From Paucisalibacillus globulus (GTDB lineage Bacteria; Bacillota; Bacilli; Bacillales; Amphibacillaceae), in NCBI RefSeq assembly GCF_900184735.1, contig NZ_LT855390.1, positions 1 to 55,634 of the forward strand: a DNA stretch of 55,634 nucleotides, read 5' to 3'. The position numbers and the translations under genes are program-made. Below, in pieces: positions 20,961 through 38,167 of the stretch. The notes under the pieces are model-generated. The model worked only from the letters and a program-made list of their open reading frames with translations. It was not told the DNA's origin and searched no databases. The number at the start of each line of letters is the position of its first letter. Positions within the stretch are counted from its first letter, which is position 1.

Positions 20961-22175
20961 TTAATCCGTTTTATGGTAATTCCTTGTCATGTTAAACAAT
21001 GATGTAACAAAGGAATAACCTGTGAATTGTGGGGTTAGGAATTTGCTTGATTCCATGAGACGGACTTTAACTGTATCTGGAGTATATGGAGGTGAGGCTT
21101 GTAGTAATAAGGCTACTATTCCGGAAACTATTCCAGTAGCCATCGATGTTCCTGTTAGTGTGAAATAGTGGGGACCAACTTTGTTTTGTGGCTGTTGAAT
21201 AGTTGTTGTGGAGTTTGGCGATTGTAAGGATATAATGTTTGTCCCAGGTACAGCGATATCAGGCTTAATGAATCCATCTAATGTTGGTTTGCTACTCGTG
21301 TACTCACCAGGAGTATCATCTTGTTCGTGGATAGTATTCCTATCGTTTGTTGCACCAACCGTTAAGATAATAGGATCATATCCCGGAGTGTCAATCGTTC
21401 CGTTTGGGCCTGAATTTCCTGCAGCTGCCACTACAACAATACCGGCACGCCAGGCTTTTTCGCATGCAAGGGCGAGAGGATCATTGACATAGGAGGTGGT
21501 TGGTGGTGCTCCGAGAGAAAGATTAATTACACGAATTCCAAATCTAGAACGATTTTCTATTGACCAATTGATACCTGCAATAACATTCGATAACAGACCA
21601 TTACCTTGACTATCTAGTACTTTTACTCCAACAACATTTGCTTCTGGAGCAATTCCACTGTAATTCCCACCCGAAGCAGAGCCATTTCCAGCTATAGCGC
21701 CTGCTACATGAGTTCCATGTCCATTGTCATCGTAAGGGGTAGTTCGGCTATTTACAAAATCTTGAAATCCAACAATTCGGTTTGTAGGATAGGTCAAATC
21801 ATAGTGTGGAAAAATTCCTGTATCAATGACTGAAACGGTAATTCCTTTCCCTGTAAGACCATGGAATTGATTTGTATGTTTTGCACCAATGGTTGCTGTT
21901 GCCACATTAAGATTAGAGCGAACTGAGTAATCGGGACAAATATATTCTACATCACTGTGTTCCATGAGGTGCCGAATGGTTTTAGGGCAGAAACGGCCAG
22001 TAATCTGGTGTATCTCTCTTAAATGATAAGTTGGTTGATCAGTACGTTGTAACGGACATAGTTCTGAAACATGTGTAGCTTTACACTTATTATTTAAGAC
22101 AATAACAACTCCCAGTTGATCATGATCATCCATTTCATTTAACATGGTCGTTATTTCCAAATTTGTTTTTTTCAT
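20961..22175 (-). CDS. Subtilisin-like serine protease (S8 family), no signal peptide
   Basis: The 404-residue protein has an I9-like propeptide (about 1-85) and a subtilase domain with the triad Asp118 (VSVIDTG), His153 (NGHGTHVAG) and Ser344 (GTSMATG), and AAAGNSGPNG as oxyanion region. AAAGGAGA is ideally placed for ATG 22175. A longer frame would add a hydrophobic stretch but has no ribosome site, so the product appears to lack a signal peptide. It lies next to the spore-glycan operon after a terminator, so a role in processing spore-surface proteins is possible. Confidence 0.9.
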   Translation of the reverse strand: MKKTNLEITTMLNEMDDHDQLGVVIVLNNKCKATHVSELCPLQRTDQPTYHLREIHQITGRFCPKTIRHLMEHSDVEYICPDYSVRSNLNVATATIGAKHTNQFHGLTGKGITVSVIDTGIFPHYDLTYPTNRIVGFQDFVNSRTTPYDDNGHGTHVAGAIAGNGSASGGNYSGIAPEANVVGVKVLDSQGNGLLSNVIAGINWSIENRSRFGIRVINLSLGAPPTTSYVNDPLALACEKAWRAGIVVVAAAGNSGPNGTIDTPGYDPIILTVGATNDRNTIHEQDDTPGEYTSSKPTLDGFIKPDIAVPGTNIISLQSPNSTTTIQQPQNKVGPHYFTLTGTSMATGIVSGIVALLLQASPPYTPDTVKVRLMESSKFLTPQFTGYSFVTSLFNMTRNYHKTD

Positions 22176-22212
22176 CGATATACTATCTCCTTTATAATAA
22201 CGAATTAGATAG

Positions 22213-22251
22213 AAAATAAGAAGACAACAAGGAGTAATCACTTGCTGTCTT
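22213..22251 (-). terminator. Terminator of the cysC-sat operon
   Basis: On the minus strand AAGACAGCAAG/CTTGTTGTCTT forms a stem followed by CTTATTTTC. It separates the spore-surface protein gene from the S8 protease gene. Confidence 0.65.
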
Positions 22252-22257
22252 TACTTT

Positions 22258-22662
22258 TTAAAACGTATAGGATTCTCCTGAAAATATAACTGGACCACTT
22301 ACAATTGCATCTCCAAGCAGACCTTCTACTGCAACTGTAACAGAATACCCATGGTATCCAGGGGGGACATTCGTATCGACAACATGGAAAGATATATTTT
22401 GGTTTTGGTTCAGTGTAATAAGCACTTGTTGTCTCACCGTTGCAATAACCTCTGAATTATCTCGAATAACTCGAAAAATTAATGTAGGACTCAGTAGTGT
22501 TGCCTGAATACCGATAGTCGCATTTAGAAATACCCTGTTAGGATTGTTCGGTACAGCTATACCGAAAGCGGCAAGTCTAACAGGTGTGTCAGCTACATTG
22601 ACACTAAAAGGGGAATTGCCATTTGAAGGCACACTAGAACCGACAGAAACAAGAGTGGCCAT
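22258..22662 (-). CDS. Spore-surface-type beta-sandwich protein (ExsC-like)
   Basis: The protein of about 134 residues has no cysteine or signal peptide and alternates short hydrophobic strands, ending in AIVSGPVIFSGESYTF. The strand pattern (FLNATIGIQA, LIFRVIRD, ISFHVVD, YSVTVAVEG) resembles small exosporium proteins such as ExsC; this is a family-level guess from sequence appearance. ATG 22662 follows GGAGGTGATG. It is the last gene of the cysC-sat operon and could be a structural carrier or neighbour of the glycan. Confidence 0.6.
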   Translation of the reverse strand: MATLVSVGSSVPSNGNSPFSVNVADTPVRLAAFGIAVPNNPNRVFLNATIGIQATLLSPTLIFRVIRDNSEVIATVRQQVLITLNQNQNISFHVVDTNVPPGYHGYSVTVAVEGLLGDAIVSGPVIFSGESYTF

Positions 22663-22726
22663 TTCATCACCTCCTCCCAATTAATCATTACAGAAAAGTA
22701 ATGAAAGATATCGAATCAAAAAATAC

Positions 22727-23869
22727 TTATTCGTACTTTTTTAATTCTGAGCGTAATAATTCAACTACTTCTGGCCGACTAAATTGTGGTGGTGGTAAAA
22801 TACCATTTCGTAGCATTTCCCTAACCTTCGTACCAGAAAGATATAAATGAAATTCTGTATGATGGGGGCAAGTTTTAGAAGTGGCCATGTTTTCACAAAT
22901 CCTACAATAAAAACTATGTTCAAATGGTAAGATTTTAATTTCAATTTCATTTGGATGAAAATTAGAAAAGATCTGCTGTGCCTCGTATGTTCCATAATAA
23001 TTACCGACTCCTGCATGATCCCGACCCACTATGAAATGGGTGCAGCCATAATTTTGCCGGACAAGCGCATGGAAAACAGCTTCTCTTGGCCCAGCATAAC
23101 GCATCGCAGCAGGAAATACCGATAGAAATACACGGTCTTTCGGATAATACTTGTTCAATAATACTTTATAGCTATTCATTCTGATAACTGCAGGAATATC
23201 ATCGGACTTTGTTTCTCCTACTAAAGGATTGATAAATAAGCCATCGACGGTTTCTAAGGCTGTTTTTTGTATATATTCATGAGCTCGGTGGATAGGATTT
23301 CTTGTTTGAAAACCTACTACGGTTTTCCAATTATTATGATGAAATGTTTTTCTTGTTTCGAGTGGGGTTTTATAGTCATGAATAATTTCAGGGATTTTCG
23401 GTGGGGCTTTTACTAGTGTGATAGGGCCGGCTAAATAAATATTTGGACGTTCCATCATTTTTTTGATACCTGGATGATTGGAATCAGTAGTTGAATAAAC
23501 AGCTTTAGCTTCTACAACCTTATTGACCTTGTAAATTTCTTCAAGCTGTATAATTCCGTAAATTTCGTTCTGATATTTTAGTTTAACGGTTTCTCCTATT
23601 TCAAGCGTATTTGCGATCACTTCAGGTACAGGAAGTGTAATGGGAATCGTCCACACCAACCCATTCGATAACCGCATCTTATCTAATACAGATAGATAAT
23701 CCGTTTCTTTCATAAATCCGTTTAGTGGGCTATACGTACCATTAGCAATAAGTTCGAGATCGGAGAGGGCCATCGCGTCAATTTCAACCTCTTTATCTAT
23801 ATCTTTCGTATTTAAGTTTACATCTACTCTGTTTATAAGAAATCCACCATGAGGTTTTATAAGTGTCAA
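22727..23869 (-). CDS. sat: Sulfate adenylyltransferase (ATP sulfurylase)
   Basis: The enzyme makes adenosine phosphosulfate from ATP and sulfate. The product, about 380 residues, has the nucleotide motif [10 protein letters not shown] near 188-197 and GRDHAGVG near 282-289, plus a Cys/His cluster (CRICE, CPHH) typical of this bacterial form. The frame opens at TTG 23887, but AAAGGTGG fits TTG 23869, giving MTLIKPHGG as in Bacillus Sat. It follows cysC closely. The absence of sulfite or PAPS reductase genes argues that its product feeds sulfotransfer rather than cysteine synthesis. Confidence 0.93.
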
Positions 23870-23883
23870 ATCGAATCCACCTT

Positions 23884-24501
23884 TCAAATCTGGTTTAGTT
23901 TAACTTGTTTCAATAAAAATGAAACTAGTTTTTGAACAGATTGTTCTATTGAAAGTTCACTAGTATCTATCGTTATATCTGGATTTTTTGGTTCTTCGTA
24001 AGCTTGGTCAATTCCTGTGAACTCTTTGATTGCTCCTTTTCTCGCTTTATTATAAAGACCCTTTGGATCACGCTTTTCACATTCCTCAAGGGTACACTTC
24101 ACGTATACCTCAATAAATTCATCAGAATTAAAAATAACTCTAGCATTTTGCCTATCTTCTTCAAATGGTGAAATTAGTGCCGCTATGACCACTAATCCTG
24201 CATCAACCAAAATTTTACCAATTTCTGCTGTTATTCTATTATTTTCTCTTCGATCCTCAACAGAAAATGATAGATTTTTATTGATGCCTTTCCTAAGATT
24301 ATCTCCATCCAAAATATAAACACTTATTTCCCTATTCATTAATTCACGTTGAAGTCTATCTGCAATCGTAGATTTTCCAGATCCCGATAGACCTGTGAAC
24401 CATAACATGACACTTTTATGCCCGTGTAACTTATTTCTGTCTTCCTTTGTAATGGTCGATCGTTGGTAAAAGATATTATCATCGCTATTATTGTCTGGCA
24501 T
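23884..24501 (-). CDS. cysC: Adenylylsulfate kinase (APS kinase)
   Basis: The protein of about 205 residues phosphorylates APS to PAPS, the universal sulfate donor. The P-loop GLSGSGKST sits near 37-45, followed by the family motifs DGDNLR and [13 protein letters not shown]-like residues and [23 protein letters not shown] 24501 is better spaced from AAAGG than ATG 24510. It is the first gene of the cysC-sat operon, with a sigma-K-like promoter upstream, divergent from the amino-sugar genes. Confidence 0.94.
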
Positions 24502-24610
24502 ATATATCATCCTTTATTTTTAGTTAATAGAAAATGCCTTAACTATTGAATAGTAAATTACTAATATAATGATCCATTCAAATCAAAGGTCATTTTTTCT
24601 CGGGTCCCTA

Positions 24611-24637
24611 TACTTTATGTCGATATATAGTGTTTGT
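24611..24637 (-). promoter_or_regulatory. Sigma-K-like promoter of the cysC-sat operon
   Basis: On the minus strand AC (24637-24636), a 16-base spacer and CATAAAGTA fit the sigma-K consensus AC-N16/17-CATANNNTA. It would give a leader of about 100 bases before cysC. Confidence 0.55.
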
Positions 24638-24727
24638 ATATTGTAGTTGCCTTATATGACACCTATTTAGTCTAGTTATTTCAATCATTTTATATAGTCT
24701 TTTTGCTAAAATAAAAGATTTGCCTAA

Positions 24728-24755
24728 ACCATTAAAATCAATGGAGCATAAGGTA
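24728..24755 (+). promoter_or_regulatory. Sigma-K-like promoter of the amino-sugar/sulfotransferase operon
   Basis: AC (24728-24729), 17 bases and CATAAGGTA match the sigma-K consensus exactly. It lies about 40 bases before the 2-epimerase start. Confidence 0.6.
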
Positions 24756-24796
24756 TGTAACAGAATGACACTAAAAAAAGATTAGGAGCTTTGTAT

Positions 24797-25888
24797 ATGA
24801 AAATAATGACAATTCTTGGAACAAGGCCGGAAATCATAAGGTTAAGCATCATTATTAAAAAACTAGATAAACTTGCTGATAAACATATACTCGTTCATAC
24901 TGGCCAAAACTTCACCGAGAGTTTAAGTGATTTGTTTTTTAAGGAGTTAAAATTACGCAAACCGGATTTTATAATTCTTAACGAGCAGCATACGTTAGGA
25001 GAACAGTTATCCGCCATCTATAAAGGGTTAGAGCAGATTCTCTTGAAAGAGAAACCCGATAAAGTTCTTGTCCTAGGTGATACAAACAGTGGGTTAAGTT
25101 CAATTCTAGTAGAACGAATGGGTATTCCTGTCATTCATATGGAAGCTGGTAATCGGTGCTTTGATTTAGAGGTACCTGAAGAAAAAAACCGAAAAGTTAT
25201 TGATGCAATCTCCAGCTTTAATCTCCCTTATACACCCCAAAGCAAAGAAAATCTATTAAAAGAAGGTATAGCCAGTCACCGCATTATTATTTCTGGAAAT
25301 CCCATCAATGAGATTCTGCAATATTATAATGAAGAAATAGAAAAAAGCAGCATTCTTGAACAATTAGGACTAAATAAAGAAGAGTATTTTTTATTAACTG
25401 TACACCGTGCAGAGAATGTAGATCATGAATCCAGACTGAAGGAAATTCTGAAAGGTATCAATAACATAGCGGATTCCTATCAGAAACGAATTATTTGTAG
25501 TATCCACCCCAGAACAAAGTCGCGTATTGACCAGTCATCTTTTATGAATATGCATCCAAAAGTTGAATTCTACGACCCATTTGGCTTTTTTGATTTTGTT
25601 AAACTTGAGAAAAATGCATTATGTGTTTTAACAGACAGTGGAACAGTTCAAGAAGAATGTTGTTTATTTCATGTACCTACTGTTACTATCCGAAAAACTA
25701 CGGAACGTCCTGAAACGGTAGAGTGTGGAAGTAATGTTGTTTCAGGTATCCATGCTAAACAAATGATAGATTGTGTTGATGTCATGCTTAACATGCCTAC
25801 TACTTGGGAAATACCAGAGGGTTATCAATATAACAATGTTTCAGATCGAGTAATTAAAGTGATATTCGGAGGAATGGAAAATGTTTAA
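24797..25888 (+). CDS. UDP-sugar 2-epimerase (FnlC/CapG/WbjD-like)
   Basis: The 363-residue protein has the WecB-type epimerase fold: GTRPEIIR at 7-14, HTGQNF, and a C-terminal SGTVQEEC. The stretch HMEAGNRCFDLEVPEEKNRK is characteristic of the branch acting on UDP-2-acetamido-2,6-dideoxy-L-hexoses rather than plain UDP-GlcNAc. ATG 24797 follows AGGAG. The next two genes are a 4,6-dehydratase and an RmlD-type reductase, so the three probably make an N-acetyl-L-deoxyhexosamine nucleotide such as L-QuiNAc or L-FucNAc; the exact sugar is uncertain. Confidence 0.85.
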   Translation: MKIMTILGTRPEIIRLSIIIKKLDKLADKHILVHTGQNFTESLSDLFFKELKLRKPDFIILNEQHTLGEQLSAIYKGLEQILLKEKPDKVLVLGDTNSGLSSILVERMGIPVIHMEAGNRCFDLEVPEEKNRKVIDAISSFNLPYTPQSKENLLKEGIASHRIIISGNPINEILQYYNEEIEKSSILEQLGLNKEEYFLLTVHRAENVDHESRLKEILKGINNIADSYQKRIICSIHPRTKSRIDQSSFMNMHPKVEFYDPFGFFDFVKLEKNALCVLTDSGTVQEECCLFHVPTVTIRKTTERPETVECGSNVVSGIHAKQMIDCVDVMLNMPTTWEIPEGYQYNNVSDRVIKVIFGGMENV

Positions 25889-26867
25889 AAATAAAACTAT
25901 TTTAGTTACAGGTGGAACTGGTTCTTGGGGATATGAATTAGTAAGACAATTACTGGAATTCAACCCAAAGAAAATTAGAATTTTTTCACGAAATGAATCC
26001 AATCAATTTACAATGAGACAAGAGTTTGATAATAATCCTCGATTGGATTTTATTATTGGCGACATTAGAGAAAAAGAAGAACTGTTAGACGCATGTCAAG
26101 GTGTTGATTATATTTTCCACTTAGCTGCACTAAAGCACGTGCCGGTATGTGAGAACCAGCCATTAGAGGCACTAAAGACAAATGTCAATGGAACACAACA
26201 TGTTATTGATGCAGCTATCGCTTGTCATGTGAGTACCGTCGTATATATATCAACTGACAAGGCATCAAATCCATCCAATTTTTATGGGCTATCGAAAGCC
26301 ATGGGTGAAAGGCTAATCATTCATGCCAATACATTGACTGAAGATACAAGGTTTGTATGTATCCGAGGTGGGAATGTTTTGGGAACAAACGGTAGTGTTA
26401 TTCATGTGTTTAAAAAACAAATTCAAGATAAAGGGAAAATTGGTATAACAGACATGAATATGACTAGATTCTTTTTAACTTTAGAAGAGGCTATTAAACT
26501 AGTTTTTAAAGCTACACGTGAGAGTGTGGGTGGAGAAATTTTTGTGATGAAGATGCCAGCCTTCAAAATAATAGATTTAGCACATGTATTAATCGAGGAA
26601 ACAGGAAAGGAAGATGTTGATATAGAAAACCTAGGGGTCAGACCTGGTGAAAAGATTCATGAACTATTACTTTCCGAGTATGAAAGCAAAAACACAATTG
26701 TCTATGATGAAGAGTATTTCGTTATATTGCCAGCCATTCATATTCAAGGGATTACCGAAAAATATGCTGATTATAAACCTGCTAATCTCATTAACTATAA
26801 TTCAAGTAAAGAATTATTGAACAAGGAAGAGATTAGAGCAATGCTCAAGAAAGGTAGGTTTATATAA
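25881..26867 (+). CDS. UDP-GlcNAc 4,6-dehydratase-like SDR (FlaA1/CapE type)
   Basis: The 328-residue protein has the nucleotide motif GGTGSWG at 11-17, the active-site group STDKAS at 124-129 and YGLSK at 135-139, as in short 4,6-dehydratases related to FlaA1/PseB and CapE. These convert UDP-GlcNAc to a 4-keto-6-deoxy sugar, often with 5-epimerisation. It retains Tyr in YxxxK. It overlaps the preceding epimerase gene by 8 bases and the following reductase gene by one base, so the three are tightly coupled. Confidence 0.87.
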   Translation: MFKNKTILVTGGTGSWGYELVRQLLEFNPKKIRIFSRNESNQFTMRQEFDNNPRLDFIIGDIREKEELLDACQGVDYIFHLAALKHVPVCENQPLEALKTNVNGTQHVIDAAIACHVSTVVYISTDKASNPSNFYGLSKAMGERLIIHANTLTEDTRFVCIRGGNVLGTNGSVIHVFKKQIQDKGKIGITDMNMTRFFLTLEEAIKLVFKATRESVGGEIFVMKMPAFKIIDLAHVLIEETGKEDVDIENLGVRPGEKIHELLLSEYESKNTIVYDEEYFVILPAIHIQGITEKYADYKPANLINYNSSKELLNKEEIRAMLKKGRFI

Positions 26868-27706
26868 TGAGGTTATTGATATTGGGTGGTGAAGGTATGG
26901 CAGGGCATATGTTGGTGTCATATTTTCAAAGCAAGAAAGAGTACACTGTTTATTACACATCCAGGAATCCTCAGAATCGGGATGCGATATATTTAGATGT
27001 GACCAATCAAGCTAGGCTTGAGGAAATAATAGAAGAGTTAGAGCCTGATATTATTATCAATTGTGTAGGTCTATTAAACCAAAAGGCAGAGGAGAATCCT
27101 CAATTAGCTTTTCAGATTAATAGTATTCTACCGCATCAGCTAGCAAAACTTGCAGATAGACATAATGGGAAGCTAATTCATATTAGTACAGATTGTGTAT
27201 TTTCAGGTAGTAAAGGAAATTATACCGAGAGTGATTCACCTGATGGTACCTCCGTTTATGCTCACACCAAAAAAACTGGGGAGATAATCGATGGTAAACA
27301 TTTAACTATTCGAACTTCCATTATTGGTCCCGAATTAAAAGAAGATGGAATTGGATTGTTCTTATGGTTTATGAAGCAGAGAGGCGAAATTAATGGATAC
27401 GATAAAGTATTTTGGAATGGAGTGACAACCCTTGAACTCGCAAAGGCAGTTGAGAGTTTTATAAAAGCGGAGGTTAAGGGGCTTTATCATTTGGGAATGG
27501 AGGATAAGATTTCAAAGTACGAACTTTTAAAGTTGATGCAGGTTATCTTTCAGAAGGAAGACGTTACGATAATACCCTATTCCCAAGTTGTGATGGACCG
27601 GACAATTAAGAATACTAGAAAGGACTTTGTTTATCATCCTCCCAAATATGAAATTATGTTAACGGAACTTAGAGATTGGATGGATGACAATGAAGAGTCA
27701 GCCTAA
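26867..27706 (+). CDS. RmlD-like sugar-nucleotide reductase
   Basis: The 279-residue SDR has GGEGMAGHM at 7-15, INCVGLLNQ, STDCVFSG and YAHTKKTGE, as in dTDP-4-dehydrorhamnose reductases and WbvR-like enzymes. In this context it would reduce the 4-keto group made by the upstream dehydratase. The lack of the C-terminal cupin domain of CapF favours an L-RhaNAc/L-QuiNAc-type route over L-FucNAc; that is inference. Start ATG 26867 overlaps the previous stop (TAATG). Confidence 0.85.
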   Translation: MRLLILGGEGMAGHMLVSYFQSKKEYTVYYTSRNPQNRDAIYLDVTNQARLEEIIEELEPDIIINCVGLLNQKAEENPQLAFQINSILPHQLAKLADRHNGKLIHISTDCVFSGSKGNYTESDSPDGTSVYAHTKKTGEIIDGKHLTIRTSIIGPELKEDGIGLFLWFMKQRGEINGYDKVFWNGVTTLELAKAVESFIKAEVKGLYHLGMEDKISKYELLKLMQVIFQKEDVTIIPYSQVVMDRTIKNTRKDFVYHPPKYEIMLTELRDWMDDNEESA

Positions 27707-28586
27707 GCTGTTAATTACCGGTGCTGCAGGATTTACAGGAAGGCATGCCTGTCAGTTTTTCGATAAAAATGGTTATGAGGTAATTGGTGTGGTCAGATCC
27801 CTCGATAATCATCTTGCCAATAAGTCAACAGTTCCTTGCAATTTGGTAAAAAAAGATGAAGTGTTTGACGTTGTCAAGCAAGTCAAACCAGATTATGTTC
27901 TTCATTTAGCTGCTAAAAATCACGTAGGTGCATCCTGGACAGATCCAGTCCAAACAGTCGAAACAAATGTATTATCAACCCTATATTTAGTAGAGGCCAT
28001 ACGGCACGTAAATCCAGACTGCACTATGATTACAGTAGGATCAGTTTTGCAATATGACCCACAAAATATCAATACCCTAACTCACCCCTATAGTCTCAGT
28101 AAAACACTTCAAAGTATCATCTCTCAAGCATGGGAATCCCTGTATAAAGTAAATATTATATCAGCTAAACCATCAAACCTTATTGGACCAGGACAATCAA
28201 ATGGTATTTGTTCCATTCTAGCTAAAAAAGTGGCTGGAATGGAACAATTGAAAGAAGATAGCAAAATAGAAATCTCTAATTTAAAAGCTAGGAGGGACTT
28301 TCTAGATGTTAGAGATGCTGTGAGGGGATATGATTTTCTATTTAGATTCGGAAATAGTGGCGAAGAATATGAAATTGCTTCAGGCGTTACACATTCTTTA
28401 GAGGACGTTATTCATTTTCTCAGCCAACTATCAAAAGTTGAATTTACAGTCCGTGCACAAAGTAATGAGGTGAGCGATTACTACAAGGGAAACACTGAAA
28501 AAATTTCTCAACTTGGTTGGCGGCCCCAAATATCGTTTAATCAATCATTATCAGATATTCTTAACTATTACCGTAAATTACCTTAG
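27684..28586 (+). CDS. NAD-dependent epimerase/dehydratase (GDP-6-deoxyhexose-reductase-like)
   Basis: The 300-residue SDR has TGAAGFTGRHA near 11-21, HLAAKNHVGASWTDP and the active-site group HPYSLSKTLQ, resembling the GDP-mannose 4,6-dehydratase/RMD branch. It ends in a typical WRPQISFNQSLSDIL tail. It may make a second deoxy sugar of the glycan. The start overlaps the preceding gene by 23 bases; ATG 27690 is an alternative. The exact substrate cannot be assigned. Confidence 0.82.
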   Translation: MTMKSQPKLLITGAAGFTGRHACQFFDKNGYEVIGVVRSLDNHLANKSTVPCNLVKKDEVFDVVKQVKPDYVLHLAAKNHVGASWTDPVQTVETNVLSTLYLVEAIRHVNPDCTMITVGSVLQYDPQNINTLTHPYSLSKTLQSIISQAWESLYKVNIISAKPSNLIGPGQSNGICSILAKKVAGMEQLKEDSKIEISNLKARRDFLDVRDAVRGYDFLFRFGNSGEEYEIASGVTHSLEDVIHFLSQLSKVEFTVRAQSNEVSDYYKGNTEKISQLGWRPQISFNQSLSDILNYYRKLP

Positions 28587-28623
28587 AAGAAAGTAAAAAT
28601 AACGCAAATAGGAGTTGGTTTAA

Positions 28624-29412
28624 TTGAACAAAGAGCTATTACTAAAGAATTTGATTAAAACAAGGATGCCTAATTACCATAAAGACTTCCCAATTATTCT
28701 TTATTGGAGTCAGAAAAGTGGCTGTACGACTTTGTTAAAATGGTTTTTTGAACAGTTAGGAATACTGGAAGAAGCAATGAAATATAGCCCATGGATACAT
28801 TACTATGAATCACAGGTTTATAAAAATGGTACTTATCCTGAAGAGCTTATAGAACATATTCTTTCAGGTCAAAAGGATTCCTATAAACTGGTTCGTAATC
28901 CTTATAAAAGGGCTGTTAGTCAATTTCTAATCTTTCCGACAACAAGAGGCTTACCTGAATGGGAAAGAGAATGGGAGCAAATACGTGAGTTTTTCTATGG
29001 TGATAAAGCCAGTAAGCGAGGAATTACATTTAAACAATTTTTGATTTATGTCAGAGACTACCCAGGAGTAATTGATGATCACCTCAAGCCTCAATATCTG
29101 GATGGTGAAGAGAATTTTGTTCAGGACTATATTTATCTAGAACGCTTCTCAACTCAAATTAAGCAAATAGAAAAAAAATATGGCTTGAAAACATTGGATA
29201 TCTCTCAACTATCCAAATCTCCCCACCACTATTCTGAAAATATGAAACTACAAGGTAACTTTGCAAACTTTGAGGTCGTCATCGATACATTCGAGAAATA
29301 TAAACAGTTTCCAACTTATGAGAGCTTCTATAATGAGGAAACCCTATCTTTAGTTAATAGTATCTATCAAAAGGACTTTGAGGTTTATGGATATAAGATG
29401 AATAGTCTATGA
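28624..29412 (+). CDS. Carbohydrate sulfotransferase (Sulfotransfer_2 type)
   Basis: The 262-residue cytoplasmic protein has the 5'-phosphosulfate-binding loop WSQKSGCTTLLKW at 28-40 and the 3'-phosphate loop KLVRNPYKRAVSQF at 88-101, the two PAPS-binding signatures of the sulfotransferase family. It would transfer sulfate from PAPS to a sugar. PAPS would come from the divergent cysC-sat genes. It begins at TTG 28624 behind TAGGAG and lies between sugar-nucleotide and glycosyltransferase genes, so the acceptor is probably the locus glycan. Acceptor position is unknown. Confidence 0.87.
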   Translation: MNKELLLKNLIKTRMPNYHKDFPIILYWSQKSGCTTLLKWFFEQLGILEEAMKYSPWIHYYESQVYKNGTYPEELIEHILSGQKDSYKLVRNPYKRAVSQFLIFPTTRGLPEWEREWEQIREFFYGDKASKRGITFKQFLIYVRDYPGVIDDHLKPQYLDGEENFVQDYIYLERFSTQIKQIEKKYGLKTLDISQLSKSPHHYSENMKLQGNFANFEVVIDTFEKYKQFPTYESFYNEETLSLVNSIYQKDFEVYGYKMNSL

Positions 29413-29426
29413 AAGGAGTTTTGGAA

Positions 29427-30164
29427 TTGGTAAATAACATTCCTCTAGTTACAATCATCATCCCCTTTTATAATTGCAACTTTATTAGCCACGCAATAAA
29501 TAGTGTATTACGGCAAACTTATAAGCAGATAGAAATTATTCTAGTAAATGATGGGTCTTCAGAAGAATATAAAAATCAATTAAATCCTTATCTTTCAAAA
29601 ATAACTTATATAGAACAAACAAACCAAGGGGTTGCAGCAGCTTTAAATCAAGGCTTAAAACATGCAAATGGAGATTATGTTGCCTGGCTTAGTTCAGATG
29701 ATCTTTTTGATAATAAAAAGATTGAAGTACAACTCGAGTACATGCTTGAGGATCAACTTGATATTAGTTTTACCAATTTTAATCACATTAACGAAAATGG
29801 ACTAATTACCAACCATAATGTAGGAAAAGTATTTGCTAATCCATTAGATGTGGTGGAAACAATGAAAAGTTTTTGTCCAATCAACGGATGTACCGTGATG
29901 ATGTCCAGAAAAGTTTGGGAAACTGTAGGAGATTTTGATGTGAAACTCAAGTATGTCCAGGATTATGATTATTGGATTAGGACATCATTCCAATTTCCCA
30001 TTCATTACCTCCATTCGACATTGACCAATTATAGAGTTCATAGGAATATGGGAACTAAAAAACATTATAAAGATCAGATGAAAGAATTCTATCATATAAG
30101 AGAAAAATATAGAGTAGAACTAGATTTATTACTATCCAGATTGAGGGGAGAGTCTGATGTTTAA
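29427..30164 (+). CDS. GT2 glycosyltransferase (SpsA-like)
   Basis: The protein of about 245 residues has the GT-A fold elements VTIIIPFYN, LVNDGSS, NGDYVAWLSSDD with the metal-binding Asp pair, and a catalytic-region GDFDVKLKYVQDYDYWIR. It resembles SpsA of the B. subtilis spore polysaccharide locus. The frame opens at ATG 29409 inside the sulfotransferase end, but AAAGGAG fits TTG 29427. It overlaps the following glycosyltransferase gene by 8 bases. Confidence 0.9.
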   Translation: MVNNIPLVTIIIPFYNCNFISHAINSVLRQTYKQIEIILVNDGSSEEYKNQLNPYLSKITYIEQTNQGVAAALNQGLKHANGDYVAWLSSDDLFDNKKIEVQLEYMLEDQLDISFTNFNHINENGLITNHNVGKVFANPLDVVETMKSFCPINGCTVMMSRKVWETVGDFDVKLKYVQDYDYWIRTSFQFPIHYLHSTLTNYRVHRNMGTKKHYKDQMKEFYHIREKYRVELDLLLSRLRGESDV

Positions 30165-31902
30165 TCATCCTTTTGTATTTAAAGGGGATGAGTATATATC
30201 ATATTCCCAAATTGACAAAGAATGTAAGAACAGTTTTACCTATCAAGTTTGCATTTTACCTGACCCTGCAATCGTAACAGAGAATTTCTCCTTTCTGATT
30301 GCACCTGATTTTGTTGAGACGGGCTCCTCAGTAGTTGGGATAGGGATGAATGGCCATGAAATTAGGATTATCGAATACGACGGAATAGATTATCACACCA
30401 TATTAGTAGTCCATGTAGATGTCTCAGATTGGAATGATTTAGTCCTCGTGTACAAAAATAAAAAACCTTTATTATATATCAATGGCAGGCTTATTGCAGA
30501 GGGGAATCCAAGTCCATTTCACGATGTGTATCCTTCTAGTAGAATAGGAGGAAATGAAAAAGGAGAATGCTTTCGCGGAAAAATACAATCTATTAAACTG
30601 TGGAACGAAAGTCTAACTCATCAAACTATTCTTCATCTAGAAGAGAGTAATCAAATTGATGATGGAAGAATTATATGGGGAAAGAACTTTTTAAATGGAC
30701 GAACATACCAAAATGGTGAATTTTTTTCTCCTAAAGCCACCGTTATAATGCCAACTTTTAATAAAAGTGAGGAAATACTATTGACGCTTTATTCCCTAGA
30801 ATGTCAGAGCTTCAACAAAAGCGAGTTTGAGGTTATTATTTGTGATGATGGTTCAGGGGATAATACATTAAATATGATTAGAGATCATACTTTTTCGTTT
30901 TCAATAACCTATATACGTTCAAATGAAAACATTGGCAGGCCAAATATGAGGAATTTGGGACTTAAATTAGCTACTGGGGATGTAATTATATTTTTGGATG
31001 CTGAAATCCTAGTTAAACCAGACTTTATTGCTCGGCATTATCATGCTCATCTGCAGAACAATCGATTAGTTGTTAGTGGCAGTTTAGTGTTACATGGAGT
31101 CTATACCAAGTTTCATCCTGAATTTAATCAGGATCAAATTAAACAACTCGAACAGATACTCCAAAATAATCAACATAAACATTATAATCTTCAAGAGATT
31201 ATAAAAGATAACAAAGTGTTTACGTTTTTAACGAAAGAAAATGTGTTAGAACAATCCTATACTCATTACTCATTTGAAAAGTCATTTGCCCAAATCTACC
31301 GAGATAATTTATTTAAATACTATGGGAATGATTTAAAAGGCTTTCACTTTCCATGGATTCTCTTCTGTACTGGAAATGTTTCAGTCAGAGCTAGAGGGTT
31401 TCAGGAAGTTGGATTATTTGAAGAGTTCCCGGGGTATGGTTGGGATGATAATGAAATGGGGTACCGATTCTATAAGAAAGGGTATTCGTTTCTCAATCAT
31501 ACGAATTTGATAAGTTTTCACCAAGAGCATCCTGTGGCATCCTCGAACTCCAACGATGCGGTAAGAAACTTTGTTAGAATGTTTAATAAGTATCAAGAAA
31601 TTGAAATGAGAATTTTTGCTTTGAATTTTGTAGGAATTGAATTATATCCATTAAACAATCTACTAATTGCCTTTCTAACATTAGAAAACAAATACCCGAC
31701 TCGGTTTCTAAACTTTAAAGAGCTTTATTACTATTTGCTGGAGTCTATAGCTCAAAAACTTTGGGTGGGTGAAGAGATGACTAAACTTGCTAAAGGTTGT
31801 CCAACTATTCGAGCCCTTGCAGAAAAGGAATGCGAAGAGCTTTTGCAATTAGAAGAATTTAGACCATTAGCTAATAATTTTAAATATCTAATGGATTTAT
31901 AA
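30157..31902 (+). CDS. Fusion of LamG-like lectin domain and GT2 glycosyltransferase
   Basis: The 581-residue protein has two parts. Residues 1-170 form a LamG/concanavalin-like beta-sandwich (WNDLVLVYKNKKPLLYING, SSRIGG, FRGKIQSIKLWN). Residues about 194-480 form a GT2 domain (ATVIMPTFNKSEEILL, ICDDGSGDNT, GDVIIFLDAE as the DxD region, GYGWDDNEMGYRF as acceptor-base region). A helical tail follows. No signal peptide is seen, so the lectin domain would work in the cytoplasm, probably holding the growing glycan. It is the last gene of the sulfotransferase operon. Confidence 0.85.
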   Translation: MFNHPFVFKGDEYISYSQIDKECKNSFTYQVCILPDPAIVTENFSFLIAPDFVETGSSVVGIGMNGHEIRIIEYDGIDYHTILVVHVDVSDWNDLVLVYKNKKPLLYINGRLIAEGNPSPFHDVYPSSRIGGNEKGECFRGKIQSIKLWNESLTHQTILHLEESNQIDDGRIIWGKNFLNGRTYQNGEFFSPKATVIMPTFNKSEEILLTLYSLECQSFNKSEFEVIICDDGSGDNTLNMIRDHTFSFSITYIRSNENIGRPNMRNLGLKLATGDVIIFLDAEILVKPDFIARHYHAHLQNNRLVVSGSLVLHGVYTKFHPEFNQDQIKQLEQILQNNQHKHYNLQEIIKDNKVFTFLTKENVLEQSYTHYSFEKSFAQIYRDNLFKYYGNDLKGFHFPWILFCTGNVSVRARGFQEVGLFEEFPGYGWDDNEMGYRFYKKGYSFLNHTNLISFHQEHPVASSNSNDAVRNFVRMFNKYQEIEMRIFALNFVGIELYPLNNLLIAFLTLENKYPTRFLNFKELYYYLLESIAQKLWVGEEMTKLAKGCPTIRALAEKECEELLQLEEFRPLANNFKYLMDL

Positions 31903-31936
31903 TAATAGTCCAATTGGTTAGTAATACACGGTTGAT

Positions 31937-32457
31937 AGAAACTGTCGATAACCCCTGTCAAATAATGAGTGTAGTATTAATATACCGCTCCGGCAGAATA
32001 CTCCGCTTTTACTGTCAGCACAGGGGCGACATCTGCTCGAAAAGACCGTCGCAGTGTCTACCTTGCCGCGGGCCCGGCCTCAGCCTCCTCGAGGGAAGTT
32101 CGCCTCTGCGGGGTCTTCGGACACGTGCTTTTCCCGCAGGAGTCTCCGTATTCTGCCTGCGCTAGTTTAGCTTACTGGTTTTTGTTTGTTATTGAATCAT
32201 GTTATTGGTTTAAGAGATTCTAAAAGCTTTTTAATTGTTACTAGCGAAGGAAATACACGGAGACTCCTGCGGGAGGATAGGCATCGGTGAGACCCCTAAA
32301 GAAGTAAGCGCGAGGAGGCTCACCAGCCGCCCGCGGCAAGGTAGACACTGTGAGGTACTCTCGAACAGATGTCGCCCCTGTGCTGACAGTAAAAGCGGAG
32401 TGTATTTCCGTAGCGGGTATGATGCTCCCCAAAAAGAATACTAGCCGCACAGTTTCT
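31937..32457. mobile_element. Composite MITE-like repeat, copy 2, with extended arms
   Basis: The ends AGAAACTG and CAGTTTCT are perfect inverted repeats. The two inner palindromic modules match copy 1, but each carries an extra segment of about 60 bases beginning TTTACTGTCAGCACAGGG on the left and ending CCCTGTGCTGACAGTAAA on the right. It lacks the 60-base piece after GTGC that copies 1 and 3 carry in the left module. Open frames inside are by-products of GC-rich palindromes. It fills the gap between convergent glycosyltransferase operons. Confidence 0.78.
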
Positions 32458-32508
32458 AATAAATTATGTATTTAAAGAAGCATATGTATTAAAAACAGCT
32501 AAATGATC

Positions 32509-32555
32509 AAAAGCAGCGTGATTGAAGATTAGAAATCTACGCTGCTTTTAACTGT
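32509..32555 (-). terminator. Terminator of the coiled-coil/GT operon
   Basis: AAAAGCAGCG/CGCTGCTTTT forms a perfect stem just after the GT4 stop. The A-rich and T-rich ends make it effective in both directions. Confidence 0.75.
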
Positions 32556-32573
32556 TTTTCATGCTTGTGATCG

Positions 32574-33641
32574 TTAAGTTAGATTGCTAATCATTTTCCT
32601 GAATTCTGAACTATACGTATCCATACTAAATTCCCTCTTTACATGATGGACTGCTTCTGTACGGATGTGATCTCGTAAAACTTGATTGGACATTAAATCC
32701 TTTGCTTCTATAAATGCCTCTGAAATATTTCCAAGATTATAGTATTTGCCGGTTTGGTTATGAATGATGGAATTACTAACACCATCTGATCTGGTTGACA
32801 AAACCGGGCATTTGCAGCTCATAGCTTCAACAATGGCGTAGCCAAATCCCTCGGTAATGGATGTGGAACATAATAAACCACCTGAGTCTCCAATAAAGGA
32901 AAAATATTTGGGCATTTCTTCATGGGGGATGTTGGAAAGAAGTTTGATATTGTTTTCTAGGTTTAGTTCTGCTAAAACCCGATAGAATTTTTCTCTTTCT
33001 ATAGGTGAAGACAACGTTGGGTCTTCGAAAATATATAATTGAATAGTAGGGTTGTATTCATGAATTAGCTTATGTCCAATTTGCAAAAATTCATGCCAAT
33101 TCTTGTTTTCTTCAATTCTACCAATCCAAGCTATTTTAGGATTTTTACCAGGAGCCATATATCGATAACCAAAATGTTCTGTATCTATACAATTATTCAT
33201 GACGAATGTTGGAGGTAAGTCCGAAATGGTCTCGAGAATGGATAGGATATGTGGTGTTTTCGATACTAATATGGCGTCGGCGTTTTTTGAAATGAATGGT
33301 GATATTCTTGGGAGTTCGATTTTGGCTGTTTCCTCTTTCCCTAGGCCCTGTATTTCATAAATTAATAGACCTTTGTATCCTAAATTTTTGAATCTAGATA
33401 GTCCATGAAAGTCAGAAGTGATGACAATCGCTGTATAATCTCCATCTTGAATTATACGTCTAATTTCATGGTCACTATTTGTTATAAAGATGCGTCCTTC
33501 ATGGTGATTGACTAAATCTCGCTTTTTCTCATAATACAAAAAATCGCAATTAATTCCTCTTTTTTTTAGAGCAATTGCTCTTTGACGGTTTAACGTTTCT
33601 ACTCCACCGCTTGGGAGATAATAAACAAATAGGATATTCAT
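32574..33641 (-). CDS. GT4-family glycosyltransferase
   Basis: The 355-residue protein has a GT-B fold with an N-terminal GGVETL loop, the nucleotide-binding IAWIGRIEENKNW near 170, and the catalytic E-x7-E motif in EGFGYAIVEAM. It uses a nucleotide sugar to extend a glycan on the cytoplasmic side. It is third in a minus-strand operon after the coiled-coil and GT2 genes, convergent with the sulfotransferase operon. The sugar is unknown. Confidence 0.9.
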   Translation of the reverse strand: MNILFVYYLPSGGVETLNRQRAIALKKRGINCDFLYYEKKRDLVNHHEGRIFITNSDHEIRRIIQDGDYTAIVITSDFHGLSRFKNLGYKGLLIYEIQGLGKEETAKIELPRISPFISKNADAILVSKTPHILSILETISDLPPTFVMNNCIDTEHFGYRYMAPGKNPKIAWIGRIEENKNWHEFLQIGHKLIHEYNPTIQLYIFEDPTLSSPIEREKFYRVLAELNLENNIKLLSNIPHEEMPKYFSFIGDSGGLLCSTSITEGFGYAIVEAMSCKCPVLSTRSDGVSNSIIHNQTGKYYNLGNISEAFIEAKDLMSNQVLRDHIRTEAVHHVKREFSMDTYSSEFRKMISNLT

Positions 33642-33686
33642 GCCTTTTCCTCCTGAATCCTGAGCTTATTTCATGAAAAATGAGTA

Positions 33687-34553
33687 TTAAAAATTAATCC
33701 CAAATCTTTGGAAGTACCAGTCATCTGATTTTTTTCGCCTCTGGAAATAATCTCTTCTCTGTTCTAAAGCACCATCTTCAAGCACAAGTCCTTCTATTTC
33801 CCTAACCCTAGAATGAATAATTAATTTTCTGCACTGTTGAATTCGTTCCAAATTAAAATGCGAATAGGCTAATTTAAGAATATTGTAGTAGAAGTCACTG
33901 TATTGTACCTTGTAGGGGTGTTGATTTCTGAATAAATGAAGGATCTTTACAGTCGGCACAACGTGACATTGATAACCAAATAACCATAATTTAATAGAGA
34001 ATTCTACATCTTCATGCCCCCATGTTTTAAACCCCTTTTCAAAACCACCAACGTTTTTGAAAACGTTCATGCTAATTGCCAAACAGGCTCCAGGTAAGAT
34101 AGCAACTTCACTGATTTCATCCTTTATAGTATTCCATTTAATAGTAAAATTTGGGTTAAGGCTTTGCCCATAACCAAAGAATTGATCATTATCAAATGCT
34201 CCGATAGCAGGAGAAACAGCATCACTTAAACCAGATAATAGAGGTTCCAAAAGATGATCAATCCACCAGTCTTGAAATTTCAGATGGGCATCGCAAAACA
34301 CTAGGTAATCCCCAGAAGCATGAGCGGCACCTAAATTCCTAGCATTAGCTGCCCCGATTCCTTCTGTTTGAATGAGGGTTACTTCATCATTCTTATTATA
34401 ATTAGCTAAAAAGTCACAGCAATGATCTTCTGAGGCATCATTGATAACAATTACTTCAAGCGTATAGTTTGTTTTTTGGGCAAATAGGGAGTCCAACGTA
34501 TTTTTAAGGTTTTCCCCCTCATTTTTAACGGGGAAAATGATGGAAACCTTCAC
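33687..34553 (-). CDS. GT2 glycosyltransferase with GalNAc-T-like DxH motif
   Basis: The 288-residue protein has SIIFPVKNEG, VINDASEDH, and CDAHLKFQDWW, where the metal site is Asp-Ala-His rather than DxD. This DxH form and GGFEKGFKTWGHEDVE match polypeptide GalNAc-transferase-type GT2/GT27 catalytic domains. It may therefore attach the first sugar to a protein, which is inference. It lies 8 bases after the coiled-coil gene on the same operon. Confidence 0.87.
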   Translation of the reverse strand: MKVSIIFPVKNEGENLKNTLDSLFAQKTNYTLEVIVINDASEDHCCDFLANYNKNDEVTLIQTEGIGAANARNLGAAHASGDYLVFCDAHLKFQDWWIDHLLEPLLSGLSDAVSPAIGAFDNDQFFGYGQSLNPNFTIKWNTIKDEISEVAILPGACLAISMNVFKNVGGFEKGFKTWGHEDVEFSIKLWLFGYQCHVVPTVKILHLFRNQHPYKVQYSDFYYNILKLAYSHFNLERIQQCRKLIIHSRVREIEGLVLEDGALEQRRDYFQRRKKSDDWYFQRFGINF

Positions 34554-34561
34554 GGGTAAAA

Positions 34562-35830
34562 TTACCTCCTTAGTTTTTTAAATGGATCAACTGCTGTACC
34601 ACCGGAATGAAGGGGATTTAGGTTAGAGAAATCGCCTGGATTTGATTGATAGTGAGATTTTGACAAAGAGGGAGAGCTGTTTTCATGACCTTGTTTTAAA
34701 GTGGTTGGTGCAGTATTGGAAGATAATTTTTGCCAGTTATGATTTGGATTTTGATGTTGTGGATTTAAACGATGGTTCTGTCTATTTTCTTGAACCTCTA
34801 TTTTATTTTGTTTTTGTTTAATTAAATCATAAGGAAACTGAAATTTTGGTGCTTCATTAGCTGTTTTTTGAGGTAGCTTGATTTTCTGCTTCGAATCATT
34901 AAGAGATGCTTCTAATTGTTTATGCATGTTTTCTTGTTCTTTTAGCTTTACTTTCAGTTGTTCAATCTCATCAGATAACTTCACTTTTTCCTGTTTATAC
35001 ATTTCCAGCTGTTGTTTCGTATCCTTTATTACATCCTTAAATTCATCTACCTGTTTCCTAAATGATTTTTCCTTTTCAATCCCTTCTAGGTTTAATTGTT
35101 GCACTTCATTTCTTAATATCTCTTTTTCATTTAGTAAATTTTCAACCTTTTGAGCAAACTGGAGTTCCTTTTCTTTGCTACTGTCCATTAACTCCTTCGT
35201 ACGTTGTTGGTAAGATTGCTCCTTTTCCTTAAAGTCCTTAACCTTATCTCGTAATAATTGGAGCTCCTTTTCGTTGGATTTCTCTTTCTCGATTGGGATT
35301 GTCTGAAGGCGGGAAATTTCTTGATTGAGCTGCTGCTCTTTTTCTTTATATTGGCCAATAGTTTCCTGTAGTTGTTGTATTTCTTGATTCTGAAGCTTCT
35401 CTTTTTCTTGTAACTGCTCCAGTTCTTGCTGGAAGGATTCCTCTTTTTCTTTTAAGAGGGATTTTAGACTTTCTATTTCCCGGTAAGATTTTCCTGACCT
35501 TTCACTACGACGATTATTGGGTTTGCTTTCTAACCTTTCATATAGTTCTTGGAATCTTGACTGCTTTTTTTCAATGCTCTTCAATCTTTTTCTTTGCAAC
35601 TCATTTTCCAATACTAGATTTGCATTGGATTCTTCCAGTTTGGAAATGATATGTGATTTATTCCTGAGTTTTTTCTCGATTTTAGTATTCTTATCAGCGA
35701 TTTCATTTATTTTTTCATATTCTCTCTTATATCTTTCCGTTTCTCTTCTAAATTTATCTACCTCAGCTTTTAAATGGCTAATCATTTCCTCCATTTCGAC
35801 TGCAGTCGGATAATCCTTATCATATTTCAT
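34562..35830 (-). CDS. Long coiled-coil protein with Asn/Gln/Pro-rich tail
   Basis: The 422-residue protein is an almost continuous coiled coil from about 8 to 320, rich in Glu, Lys and Gln. It is followed by a low-complexity tail rich in Asn, Gln, His, Pro and Ser, ending DPFKKLRR. It has no signal peptide, membrane segment or cysteine. It is first in an operon with two glycosyltransferase genes and could be a scaffold or coat component, or itself a glycosylation substrate because of the Ser/Thr-rich tail. No family recognised. Confidence 0.75.
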   Translation of the reverse strand: MKYDKDYPTAVEMEEMISHLKAEVDKFRRETERYKREYEKINEIADKNTKIEKKLRNKSHIISKLEESNANLVLENELQRKRLKSIEKKQSRFQELYERLESKPNNRRSERSGKSYREIESLKSLLKEKEESFQQELEQLQEKEKLQNQEIQQLQETIGQYKEKEQQLNQEISRLQTIPIEKEKSNEKELQLLRDKVKDFKEKEQSYQQRTKELMDSSKEKELQFAQKVENLLNEKEILRNEVQQLNLEGIEKEKSFRKQVDEFKDVIKDTKQQLEMYKQEKVKLSDEIEQLKVKLKEQENMHKQLEASLNDSKQKIKLPQKTANEAPKFQFPYDLIKQKQNKIEVQENRQNHRLNPQHQNPNHNWQKLSSNTAPTTLKQGHENSSPSLSKSHYQSNPGDFSNLNPLHSGGTAVDPFKKLRR

Positions 35831-36029
35831 AGATTCAGCCCCATTACTTTTATATTTCCTAACATTTAAAACACATCCTTCAATATTAATAATATGATAA
35901 TTATATAACTATGCCATGCAGTTAGAACTAGCGCTCCAAGCTATTAAGAATGTAGTATCCTTCTTAAAATATGCTTATATATACTAAACAGTGAGGGCCC
36001 TTTATCTAGAAAAGCCCCTTGAATTGTTA

Positions 36030-36057
36030 ACATTTGGCGATATATTTTCATAGAATA
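36030..36057 (+). promoter_or_regulatory. Sigma-K-like promoter of the 432-residue gene
   Basis: AC (36030-36031), 17 bases and CATAGAATA fit the sigma-K consensus exactly. It lies about 48 bases before the start codon. Confidence 0.55.
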
Positions 36058-36104
36058 ATTATGTATAAGATAAGGTATTTATCATATACATTGGAGGTGT
36101 AAGA

Positions 36105-37403: not shown

Positions 37404-37426
37404 GTCAATCAATTGATATTACTAAA

Positions 37427-37456
37427 CCCGGGGTATGGATAATCCCATACCTCGGG
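37427..37456. terminator. Strong hairpin between convergent genes
   Basis: CCCGGGGTATGG/CCATACCTCGGG forms a GC-rich stem with one mismatch and a short loop. It separates the 432-residue gene from the M67 gene. The U-tract is poor, but the position fits a bidirectional terminator. Confidence 0.6.
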
Positions 37457-37467
37457 AAAGAATGTTA

Positions 37468-37902
37468 TTACTTTTTCAATTTGATAACTAAAGAGTTTAC
37501 TTGATTTTGTTCCATTTTATATGCTTTTATATCCGGAACTTGGTTTTGTAAGGAAACAATTACATGGCTTAATTCGGGGTAATTGTTGTAGTGTATATCT
37601 CCTCTGGAAGGAATAGCAGGTGCAGTGGGATGAGAATGATATATTGCCAAGACATTTTCATTCTTCATCGAAATTAAATGGAATACCTTCTTTATTTCGC
37701 TCAATGACATGGAAAAGGAGACCGTGCTCTGATCTATATTTTTCATTGGCCATATGGTGCAGATTATTCCGTCCTTTCCAGACAATAGACCACAAGCTTC
37801 TAAAGGAGATTCCTTCTTACAATGGTAGATTAACTGATTATAAACATGATTTGTGAAAAAAATAGTATGATGTCTTTTAGCGTTTTTAGCTACCTTTTCC
37901 AC
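37468..37902 (-). CDS. JAMM/Mov34 (M67) metallopeptidase
   Basis: The 144-residue protein has the zinc site Glu35 (PLEACGLLSG), His89 and His91 in HSHP, Ser99 and Asp102, the complete JAMM motif. Bacterial M67 enzymes cut isopeptide or C-terminal tails of sulfur-carrier-like proteins. No ThiS/MoaD-like gene is nearby. GTG 37902 overlaps the small upstream gene by 17 bases, suggesting translational coupling. With spore-surface genes around, it may mature a coat protein; the substrate is unknown. Confidence 0.85.
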   Translation of the reverse strand: MEKVAKNAKRHHTIFFTNHVYNQLIYHCKKESPLEACGLLSGKDGIICTIWPMKNIDQSTVSFSMSLSEIKKVFHLISMKNENVLAIYHSHPTAPAIPSRGDIHYNNYPELSHVIVSLQNQVPDIKAYKMEQNQVNSLVIKLKK

Positions 37903-38029: not shown

Positions 38030-38096
38030 ATATAACCATCTCCTTGGCATTATCCATTTCGCCTTGATGTTTCTTGGATTAGATGACTTTCAAGTA

Positions 38097-38125: not shown

Positions 38126-38167
38126 TATGACACTAAATTAATGATGGAGAAGATACTTTCTTCTATA

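Follow-up and report, generated by a model that had tools for sequence, protein, structure and literature searches.

Organization of the locus

The 55,634-nucleotide stretch of Paucisalibacillus globulus analysed here (the window), which forms the start of a 246-kb contig (C7) in a 3.92-Mb genome (G000), contains a gene cluster predicted to direct the synthesis of a sulfated glycan of the spore surface. The cluster spans positions 20961–39316 and comprises four transcription units in two divergent pairs. Unit 1, on the minus strand, encodes the adenosine 5'-phosphosulfate (APS) kinase CysC, the ATP sulfurylase Sat, a 140-residue protein and an S8 subtilase. Unit 2, on the plus strand, encodes a CapG-like 2-epimerase, a CapE/PseB-like dehydratase, an RmlD-like reductase without a cupin domain, another member of the short-chain dehydrogenase/reductase (SDR) family, a sulfotransferase, a family 2 glycosyltransferase (GT2) and a LamG–GT2 fusion protein. 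Unit 3, on the minus strand, encodes a coiled-coil protein, a GT2 and a family 4 glycosyltransferase (GT4), and unit 4, on the plus strand, a 432-residue protein, after which a JAB-like protein and a spore coat protein of the BMQ_0737 family lie on the minus strand. An earlier reading of the letters made without database searches (the sequence-only reading) had named the genes at the positions at which they are found, and Pfam matches back its family calls; its cysC–sat operon is present as named, but extends further than proposed, through the 140-residue protein into the subtilase (to 20961).

Synthesis of activated sulfate

The enzymes for the synthesis of 3'-phosphoadenosine 5'-phosphosulfate (PAPS) are Sat (22727–23887, minus strand; Pfam ATP-sulfurylase, 3.2e-97) and CysC (23884–24510, minus strand; Pfam APS_kinase, 7.9e-64; NCBIfam apsK above cut-off). 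CysC is the sole APS kinase of the genome: PF01583 has two matches, the locus gene (215 bits) and a protein at 21.2 bits that was rejected as a second APS kinase, being a shikimate kinase (146.8 bits). A second ATP sulfurylase of 579 residues, with a C-terminal extension and without an APS kinase domain according to Pfam, is encoded on contig C16 (L046, 4824–6563), and enzymes of this type are also present in several relatives within the genus that lack cysC.

A tree built from 34 CysC proteins places the window CysC in a clade (100/99) with the cluster-encoded proteins of Paucisalibacillus, Perspicuibacillus, Cytobacillus, Alkalihalobacterium and Bacillus J33, and the assimilatory CysC proteins of the last four fall outside it. 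The Fictibacillus cluster copies form a separate clade. The cluster label changes four times on the tree, compared with 11.0 times in shuffles, none of the 500 shuffles being as low. Several further cluster copies sit on long branches and are placed with little certainty, so that CysC was likely recruited to such clusters repeatedly.

The sulfotransferase and the predicted fate of PAPS

The fifth gene of unit 2 (28624–29412, plus strand) encodes a predicted PAPS-dependent sulfotransferase, which matches Pfam Sulfotransfer_2 (PF03567; 2.6e-8, 34.8 bits, cut-off 22). It carries both of the motifs that we take to be the PAPS loops, PKSGCT (5'-phosphosulfate-binding) and RNPYxRxxS (3'-phosphate-binding). 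Across an alignment of 25 homologues, residues K31, G33, C34, T35, R91, P93, R96 and S99 do not vary, and P30 is replaced by Q in some. The AlphaFold2 model has a predicted local distance difference test score of 91.4, and its fold matches, albeit with moderate structural scores, all lie within the sulfotransferase superfamily, the top Foldseek match being a heparan sulfate 3-O-sulfotransferase (E-value of 3e-3). A profile search against PDB sequences returned nothing at E ≤ 1. Residues and fold thus agree with the earlier identification of a sulfotransferase with both loops. The nearest named relative, Paucisalibacillus sp. EB02, has a sulfotransferase with 87% identity, and this branch of the family is present in 20 of 397 genomes of Bacillales, three of the 20 being fragments or weak matches. 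The operon context suggests a carbohydrate as the acceptor.

No match to PAPS reductase (PF01507) was detected in the whole genome, in a search whose controls were positive in 14 of 14 genomes, and the only sulfite-reductase-type match is a single-domain open reading frame of 216 residues. PF03567 has one match in the genome, the locus gene, and PF00685 has none, these two being the sulfotransferase families searched. Because PAPS reductase was not found, and because the sole APS kinase and the sole PF03567/PF00685 sulfotransferase both lie in the locus, PAPS most likely feeds sulfate transfer in this organism. The sequence-only reading had proposed sulfate transfer over reduction because it saw no reductase gene nearby; the absence extends to the entire genome, and the gene order in Lentibacillus (sulfotransferase–cysQ–cysC–permease–sat) points the same way. 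There, CysQ (TIGR01331, 281 bits, cut-off 229) is the phosphatase that clears the 3'-phosphoadenosine 5'-phosphate left after sulfate transfer, and the permease is of the sulfate type (CitMHS/Na_sulph_symp).

Among 61 relatives, 35 have an APS kinase (above 200 bits) and 28 a PAPS reductase (above 150 bits). The sulfotransferase is carried by four of the seven genomes with the kinase and no reductase (G000, G007, G011 and G055), by two of the 28 with both (G013 and G056) and by none of the 26 without the kinase. Six of the 24 sulfotransferase-bearing genomes described below have no PAPS reductase above 150 bits (G000, G064, G068, G079, G082 and G083).

Sugar-nucleotide enzymes and glycosyltransferases

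The first gene of unit 2 (24791–25888, plus strand) encodes a UDP-sugar 2-epimerase (Pfam Epimerase_2, 5.5e-88) that is nearest to CapG (PDB entry 7ya2, 3.6e-95, the best of 24). It is followed on the same strand by a UDP-N-acetylglucosamine 4,6-dehydratase of the CapE/PseB type (25881–26867; Pfam Polysacc_synt_2, 1.9e-100; PDB entries 2gn4 (PseB), 1.3e-74, and 3vvb (CapE), 2.8e-62), whose matches to the PseB and FnlA models are below cut-off, and by a 4-keto reductase of the RmlD family (26867–27706, 279 residues; Pfam RmlD_sub_bind, 3.3e-33; PDB matches of the RmlD type). The reductase shows no match to the WbjC-type model NF047837, and the cupin part of CapF is not present. A further SDR-family enzyme acting on nucleoside diphosphate (NDP) sugars, an epimerase or reductase, completes the set (27684–28586, plus strand; Pfam Epimerase, 1.2e-44).

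Since the 2-epimerase is nearest to CapG, the product is likely to be the nucleotide of a 2-acetamido-2,6-dideoxy-L-sugar. A reductase without the cupin part is associated with the branch leading to N-acetyl-L-quinovosamine (L-QuiNAc) or N-acetyl-L-rhamnosamine (L-RhaNAc), and the assignment therefore leans towards a sugar of this type rather than N-acetyl-L-fucosamine (L-FucNAc).

Four glycosyltransferases are encoded in the locus. Unit 2 ends with a GT2 (29409–30164, plus strand; Pfam GT2, 1.1e-32; PDB matches including chondroitin synthase and SpsA) and the LamG–GT2 fusion (30157–31902, plus strand; Pfam GT2, 1.8e-24, and Laminin_G_3, 1.3e-7), and unit 3 contributes the GT4 (32574–33641, minus strand; Pfam Glycos_transf_1) and a GT2 with a Glyco_transf_7C stretch (33687–34553, minus strand; Pfam). 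The first gene of unit 3 encodes a coiled-coil protein of 422 residues (34562–35830, minus strand) without a Pfam family, possibly a scaffold, whose position is kept in three related loci (L012, L015 and L032). The NDP-sugar genes and glycosyltransferases are conserved together across the loci of relatives. By simple hydropathy, none of the 18 locus proteins has more than one transmembrane stretch, and no polytopic flippase or polymerase of the Wzx/Wzy type is among them.

Sigma-K-type promoters

Upstream regions were scored with the pattern AC-N15..17-CATAnnnTA, whose letters (−35 AC, −10 CATAnnnTA) we take to be the sigma-K consensus and whose spacing range was fixed after the upstream regions of this locus had been viewed. 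All four divergent transcription units have a candidate promoter. That of cysC–sat lies at approximately 24614–24638 (minus strand; −10 CATAAAGTA, the −10 being kept in L015 and L032), and that of the sugar and sulfotransferase operon at 24728–24755 (plus strand; −10 CATAAGGTA, with a full match in L015 and L032 and the −10 visible in L012). The candidate of the operon for the coiled-coil protein, GT2 and GT4 lies at approximately 35967–35994 (minus strand; kept in L015 and L032), and that of the 432-residue protein, a pattern match, at 36030–36057 (plus strand). A full match upstream of the BMQ_0737-family gene was not found.

Of the 157 upstream regions on the 246-kb contig, six contain the pattern, and four of the six are those of cysC, the 2-epimerase, the coiled-coil protein and the 432-residue protein (Fisher test, 6e-7). 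Each promoter singly is matched in 2–5% of dinucleotide shuffles, and the four jointly in none of 2,000. In 17 stretches of 16 related genomes, the pattern is present upstream of cluster genes in 26 of 84 regions, compared with 3 of 85 regions for other genes in the same stretches (Fisher test, 1.2e-6). Matches occur in 11 of the 16 genomes and include sat of all four Fictibacillus; none was found in the remaining five (L019, L055, L056, L057 and L080). For the sulfotransferase operon itself, a broader count made earlier gave matches in 6 of 24 leader regions. Control by sigma-K, which had been proposed in the sequence-only reading, is thus favoured by all four promoters and by the enrichment in relatives. 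A published sigma-K motif has a gap of 14–16 between its 5-nt and 10-nt elements (PMC517825, available in excerpt), in agreement with the spacing used here.

Distribution and linkage in relatives

When 84,980 genomes of named species were scanned for the sulfotransferase, 24 loci were obtained; after removal of a metagenome-assembled genome assigned to Myxococcales and addition of P. globulus, 24 genomes were counted. These genomes are not independent, four being Fictibacillus. The removed locus (L033), left out of all counts, carries at its contig end a frame-broken sulfotransferase relative (two tblastn pieces in different frames, 48% in the best), and its other open reading frames do not appear Bacillales-like by eye; the relative may reflect transfer, contamination or chance. 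The sulfotransferase range of L024 is interrupted by a stop and was excluded from the alignment (A2), the genome still being counted.

APS kinase is present in all 24 genomes, and in 13 of them the distance between cysC and the sulfotransferase gene is no more than 30 kb (the window, L012, L015, L017, L019, L021, L024, L025, L026, L028, L029, L031 and L032), against an expected 0.55. The proposed co-occurrence of the sulfotransferase with PAPS genes therefore stands at the level of genomes, whereas close linkage is confined to these 13 of the 24. Co-occurrence with sporulation genes is found as well: all 24 genomes encode SpoIVA, although most relatives are spore formers in any case, and a BMQ_0737-family gene is present in 17, in 13 of which no more than 20 kb separate it from the sulfotransferase (expected, 0.2). 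In three more (G069, G076 and G082) it is near a cysC, the exception being Gracilibacillus (G065).

The Fictibacillus cluster has the order 432-residue protein–BMQ_0737–cysC–sat–GT2s–SDR–RmlD-like–CapE–CapG-like–GT4–GT2, and Bacillus Marseille-Q3570 has the same cluster with its sulfotransferase elsewhere in the genome. A Cys-rich Fictibacillus protein (L026, 16377–16739), CotZ-like by eye, gave no Pfam, NCBIfam or PDB match and was not used. In Halalkalibacter urbisdiaboli, a single cluster (L018, 5815–11534) encodes a BMQ_0737 protein together with five sulfotransferases, which belong to two families, and Alkalihalobacterium elongatum has five tandem BMQ_0737-family genes adjoining the sulfotransferase region (G066, contig C22, 130132–135412). 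A sulfotransferase relative with 43% identity is present on Priestia megaterium plasmids (3 of 72,556 plasmid records); in the single region inspected (L087, NZ_CP085418.1) it lies among YjcZ and YheC/D sporulation-type genes.

Modules of sat–permease–cysC–cysQ are also present beside capE-like genes without this sulfotransferase (L081, L082, L084 and L085, in genomes G036, G037, G016 and G008). A PF00685 sulfotransferase (145–149 bits) lies near the module in L081 and L084 (genomes G036 and G016), and modules of this kind probably serve another sulfated glycan.

Spore coat protein and other genes of the locus

The BMQ_0737-family morphogenetic spore coat protein (p382, 382 residues; 38168–39316, minus strand; NF052457, 118.8 bits, cut-off 71) is encoded 2.3 kb outside the interval 22258–35830 to which the sequence-only reading had confined the locus. 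The 432-residue protein (36105–37403, plus strand) belongs to no known family or domain (no Pfam or NCBIfam match) and travels with BMQ_0737; its family is found by tblastn beside BMQ_0737 and sat–cysC in several genera (L012, L015, L018, L032, L049–L052 and L057). Between the two lies a JAB/MPN metallopeptidase-like protein (37468–37902, minus strand; Pfam Prok-JAB).

The 140-residue protein (22258–22680, minus strand) shares the operon of cysC and sat, as had been described, and is kept in three relatives (57–80% identity). The label of spore-surface type that it had been given is unproven because no Pfam or NCBIfam family matches, and a role at the spore surface is only suspected. The last gene of the operon encodes the S8 subtilase (20961–22241, minus strand; Pfam Peptidase_S8, 6.2e-52), which also follows the 140-residue protein in L015, L032 and L086; its true start is probably an internal ATG, as in the relative L007.

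Between the convergent units 2 and 3, a GC-rich, imperfectly palindromic element of approximately 445 bp is present (31986–32430). Parts of it are repeated at four other sites of the contig: near 15005–15377, near 44123–44366, near 198861 and at the contig end.

A proposed pathway for a sulfated spore-surface glycan

We consider the locus to be, with a probability of roughly three in four, a sigma-K-timed mother-cell pathway for a sulfated glycan of the outermost spore layer. The case is built from enzyme families, cofactor loops, gene linkage, the enrichment of promoters and the lack of a route to reduction, all read from sequence. In late sporulation, the mother cell would transcribe the four divergent units with sigma-K RNA polymerase; Sat and CysC would convert sulfate to PAPS, and the CapE-, RmlD- and CapG-like enzymes with the further SDR would convert UDP-N-acetylglucosamine to a 2-acetamido-2,6-dideoxy-L-sugar nucleotide of the L-FucNAc or L-QuiNAc type. 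The four cytosolic glycosyltransferases would build the glycan in the mother-cell cytoplasm, the sulfotransferase would move sulfate from PAPS onto it, and the product would become part of the outermost layer, in whose construction the BMQ_0737-family protein would take part. A flippase or polymerase would not be needed, as the spore surface is turned towards the cytoplasm of the mother cell, and a locus without polytopic proteins is what is expected of a glycan made there. The amino-sugar-containing, sulfated spore-surface glycan proposed in the sequence-only reading is in this way supported by the co-conserved NDP-sugar and glycosyltransferase genes, the promoters and the linked coat gene.

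Three other explanations were weighed. The PAPS genes may serve spore sulfolactate, with the glycan genes as mere neighbours, as the sat–cysC genes here also look sigma-K controlled and resemble in this the B. subtilis yitBA–yisZ operon, which is expressed late in development and has an inferred role in phosphosulfolactate synthesis (PMC517825, excerpt). Sulfolactate, however, needs sulfite and hence PAPS reductase, and none was found in P. globulus or in Paucisalibacillus EB02 (G007/G064), phosphosulfolactate synthase not having been searched for; in Lentibacillus sediminis (G011/G068) the PAPS reductase match is below cut-off (22.0 bits). Together with the fact that sat–cysC travels with the sulfotransferase and glycosyltransferases, this makes the sulfolactate route very improbable, and for the P. 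globulus genome it was rejected because no PAPS reductase was found there.

Alternatively, the product could be an extracellular or capsular sulfated polysaccharide that is made by growing cells and has nothing to do with spores. In favour of this are the modules beside capE-like genes that lack this sulfotransferase, the PF00685 sulfotransferases beside two of them, and an export-like protein with nine transmembrane segments near the module of L082 (G037). The window locus itself encodes no polytopic membrane protein by hydropathy, and the enrichment of sigma-K promoters and the linkage to BMQ_0737 argue against a capsule, which we regard as unlikely. Scarcely different in probability is the sulfation of a spore-surface protein (at tyrosine or another protein-bound site) or of a small molecule, the glycan being unsulfated. 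Against it, the sulfotransferase gene is flanked within a single operon by genes for sugar-nucleotide enzymes and glycosyltransferases, its counterparts in other genomes move but keep the company of GT4 and GT2 genes in many loci, and the heparan sulfate enzyme is its top Foldseek match.

If the sulfated spore glycan exists, it would confer a negative charge that is strong and independent of pH. How spores adhere, wet and spread is controlled by their surface glycans, whose chemistry has been worked out in few species. PAPS would gain a developmental role in a cell type unable to reduce it, and in genomes such as this one 35S from sulfate on the spore surface could not derive from PAPS reduction. 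The pathway would also provide a likely role for an orphan pair, the BMQ_0737 and 432-residue families, which recur with the locus. More broadly, and with somewhat less assurance, many Bacillales may have a dedicated sigma-K-timed sulfation pathway (permease, Sat, paralogous CysC, sulfotransferases and CysQ) that serves solely to attach sulfate esters to the outermost glycan of the spore, makes the surface heparin-like and permanently anionic, and is in some lineages the sole use of PAPS.

Comparison with known systems

No description of a sulfated spore glycan was found in the open-licence full-text literature, and older or subscription papers may hold one. The synthesis of PAPS in late sporulation has a precedent in B. 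subtilis, which the sequence-only reading overlooked and which lowers the novelty of the locus. The yitBA–yisZ genes presumably encode PAPS reductase, ATP sulfurylase and APS kinase. The yitBA–yisZ/yitCD system and the P. globulus locus have in common activated-sulfate genes and late-sporulation timing (PMC517825, excerpt, for B. subtilis; predicted from promoters here). In the sulfolactate route, PAPS is reduced, whereas the P. globulus cluster includes a sulfotransferase and the genome yielded no match to PAPS reductase.

The CapE–CapF–CapG and FnlABC pathways to UDP-L-FucNAc share the 4,6-dehydratase and the CapG-like 2-epimerase with unit 2, which differs in having a reductase without the CapF cupin part and one further SDR. 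The sulfotransferase has the family match and both PAPS loops of the PF03567 carbohydrate sulfotransferases, but represents a divergent Bacillales branch without a PDB sequence match at the threshold given above. The B. megaterium BMQ_0737 protein is located in the outermost spore layers (PMC4656864, excerpt); p382 belongs to the same family (NF052457), but is longer (382 residues compared with the 199 positions of the model) and lies in a sulfation cluster.

A further parallel is the B. subtilis crust, whose sugars are rhamnose, quinovose, glucosamine, galactose and legionaminic acid, with sps making rhamnose and legionaminic acid (PMC7439481, excerpt). Both systems have a CapE/PseB-family dehydratase (SpsM in B. 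subtilis), a GT2 (SpsA) and mother-cell expression, predicted here, such that the sugars need no export. The P. globulus locus differs in its CapG-like branch and in sulfation, PAPS genes and a sulfotransferase not being mentioned for sps in the excerpt of PMC7439481. The locus thus appears to belong with the sigma-K spore-surface glycan loci, here with sulfation added.

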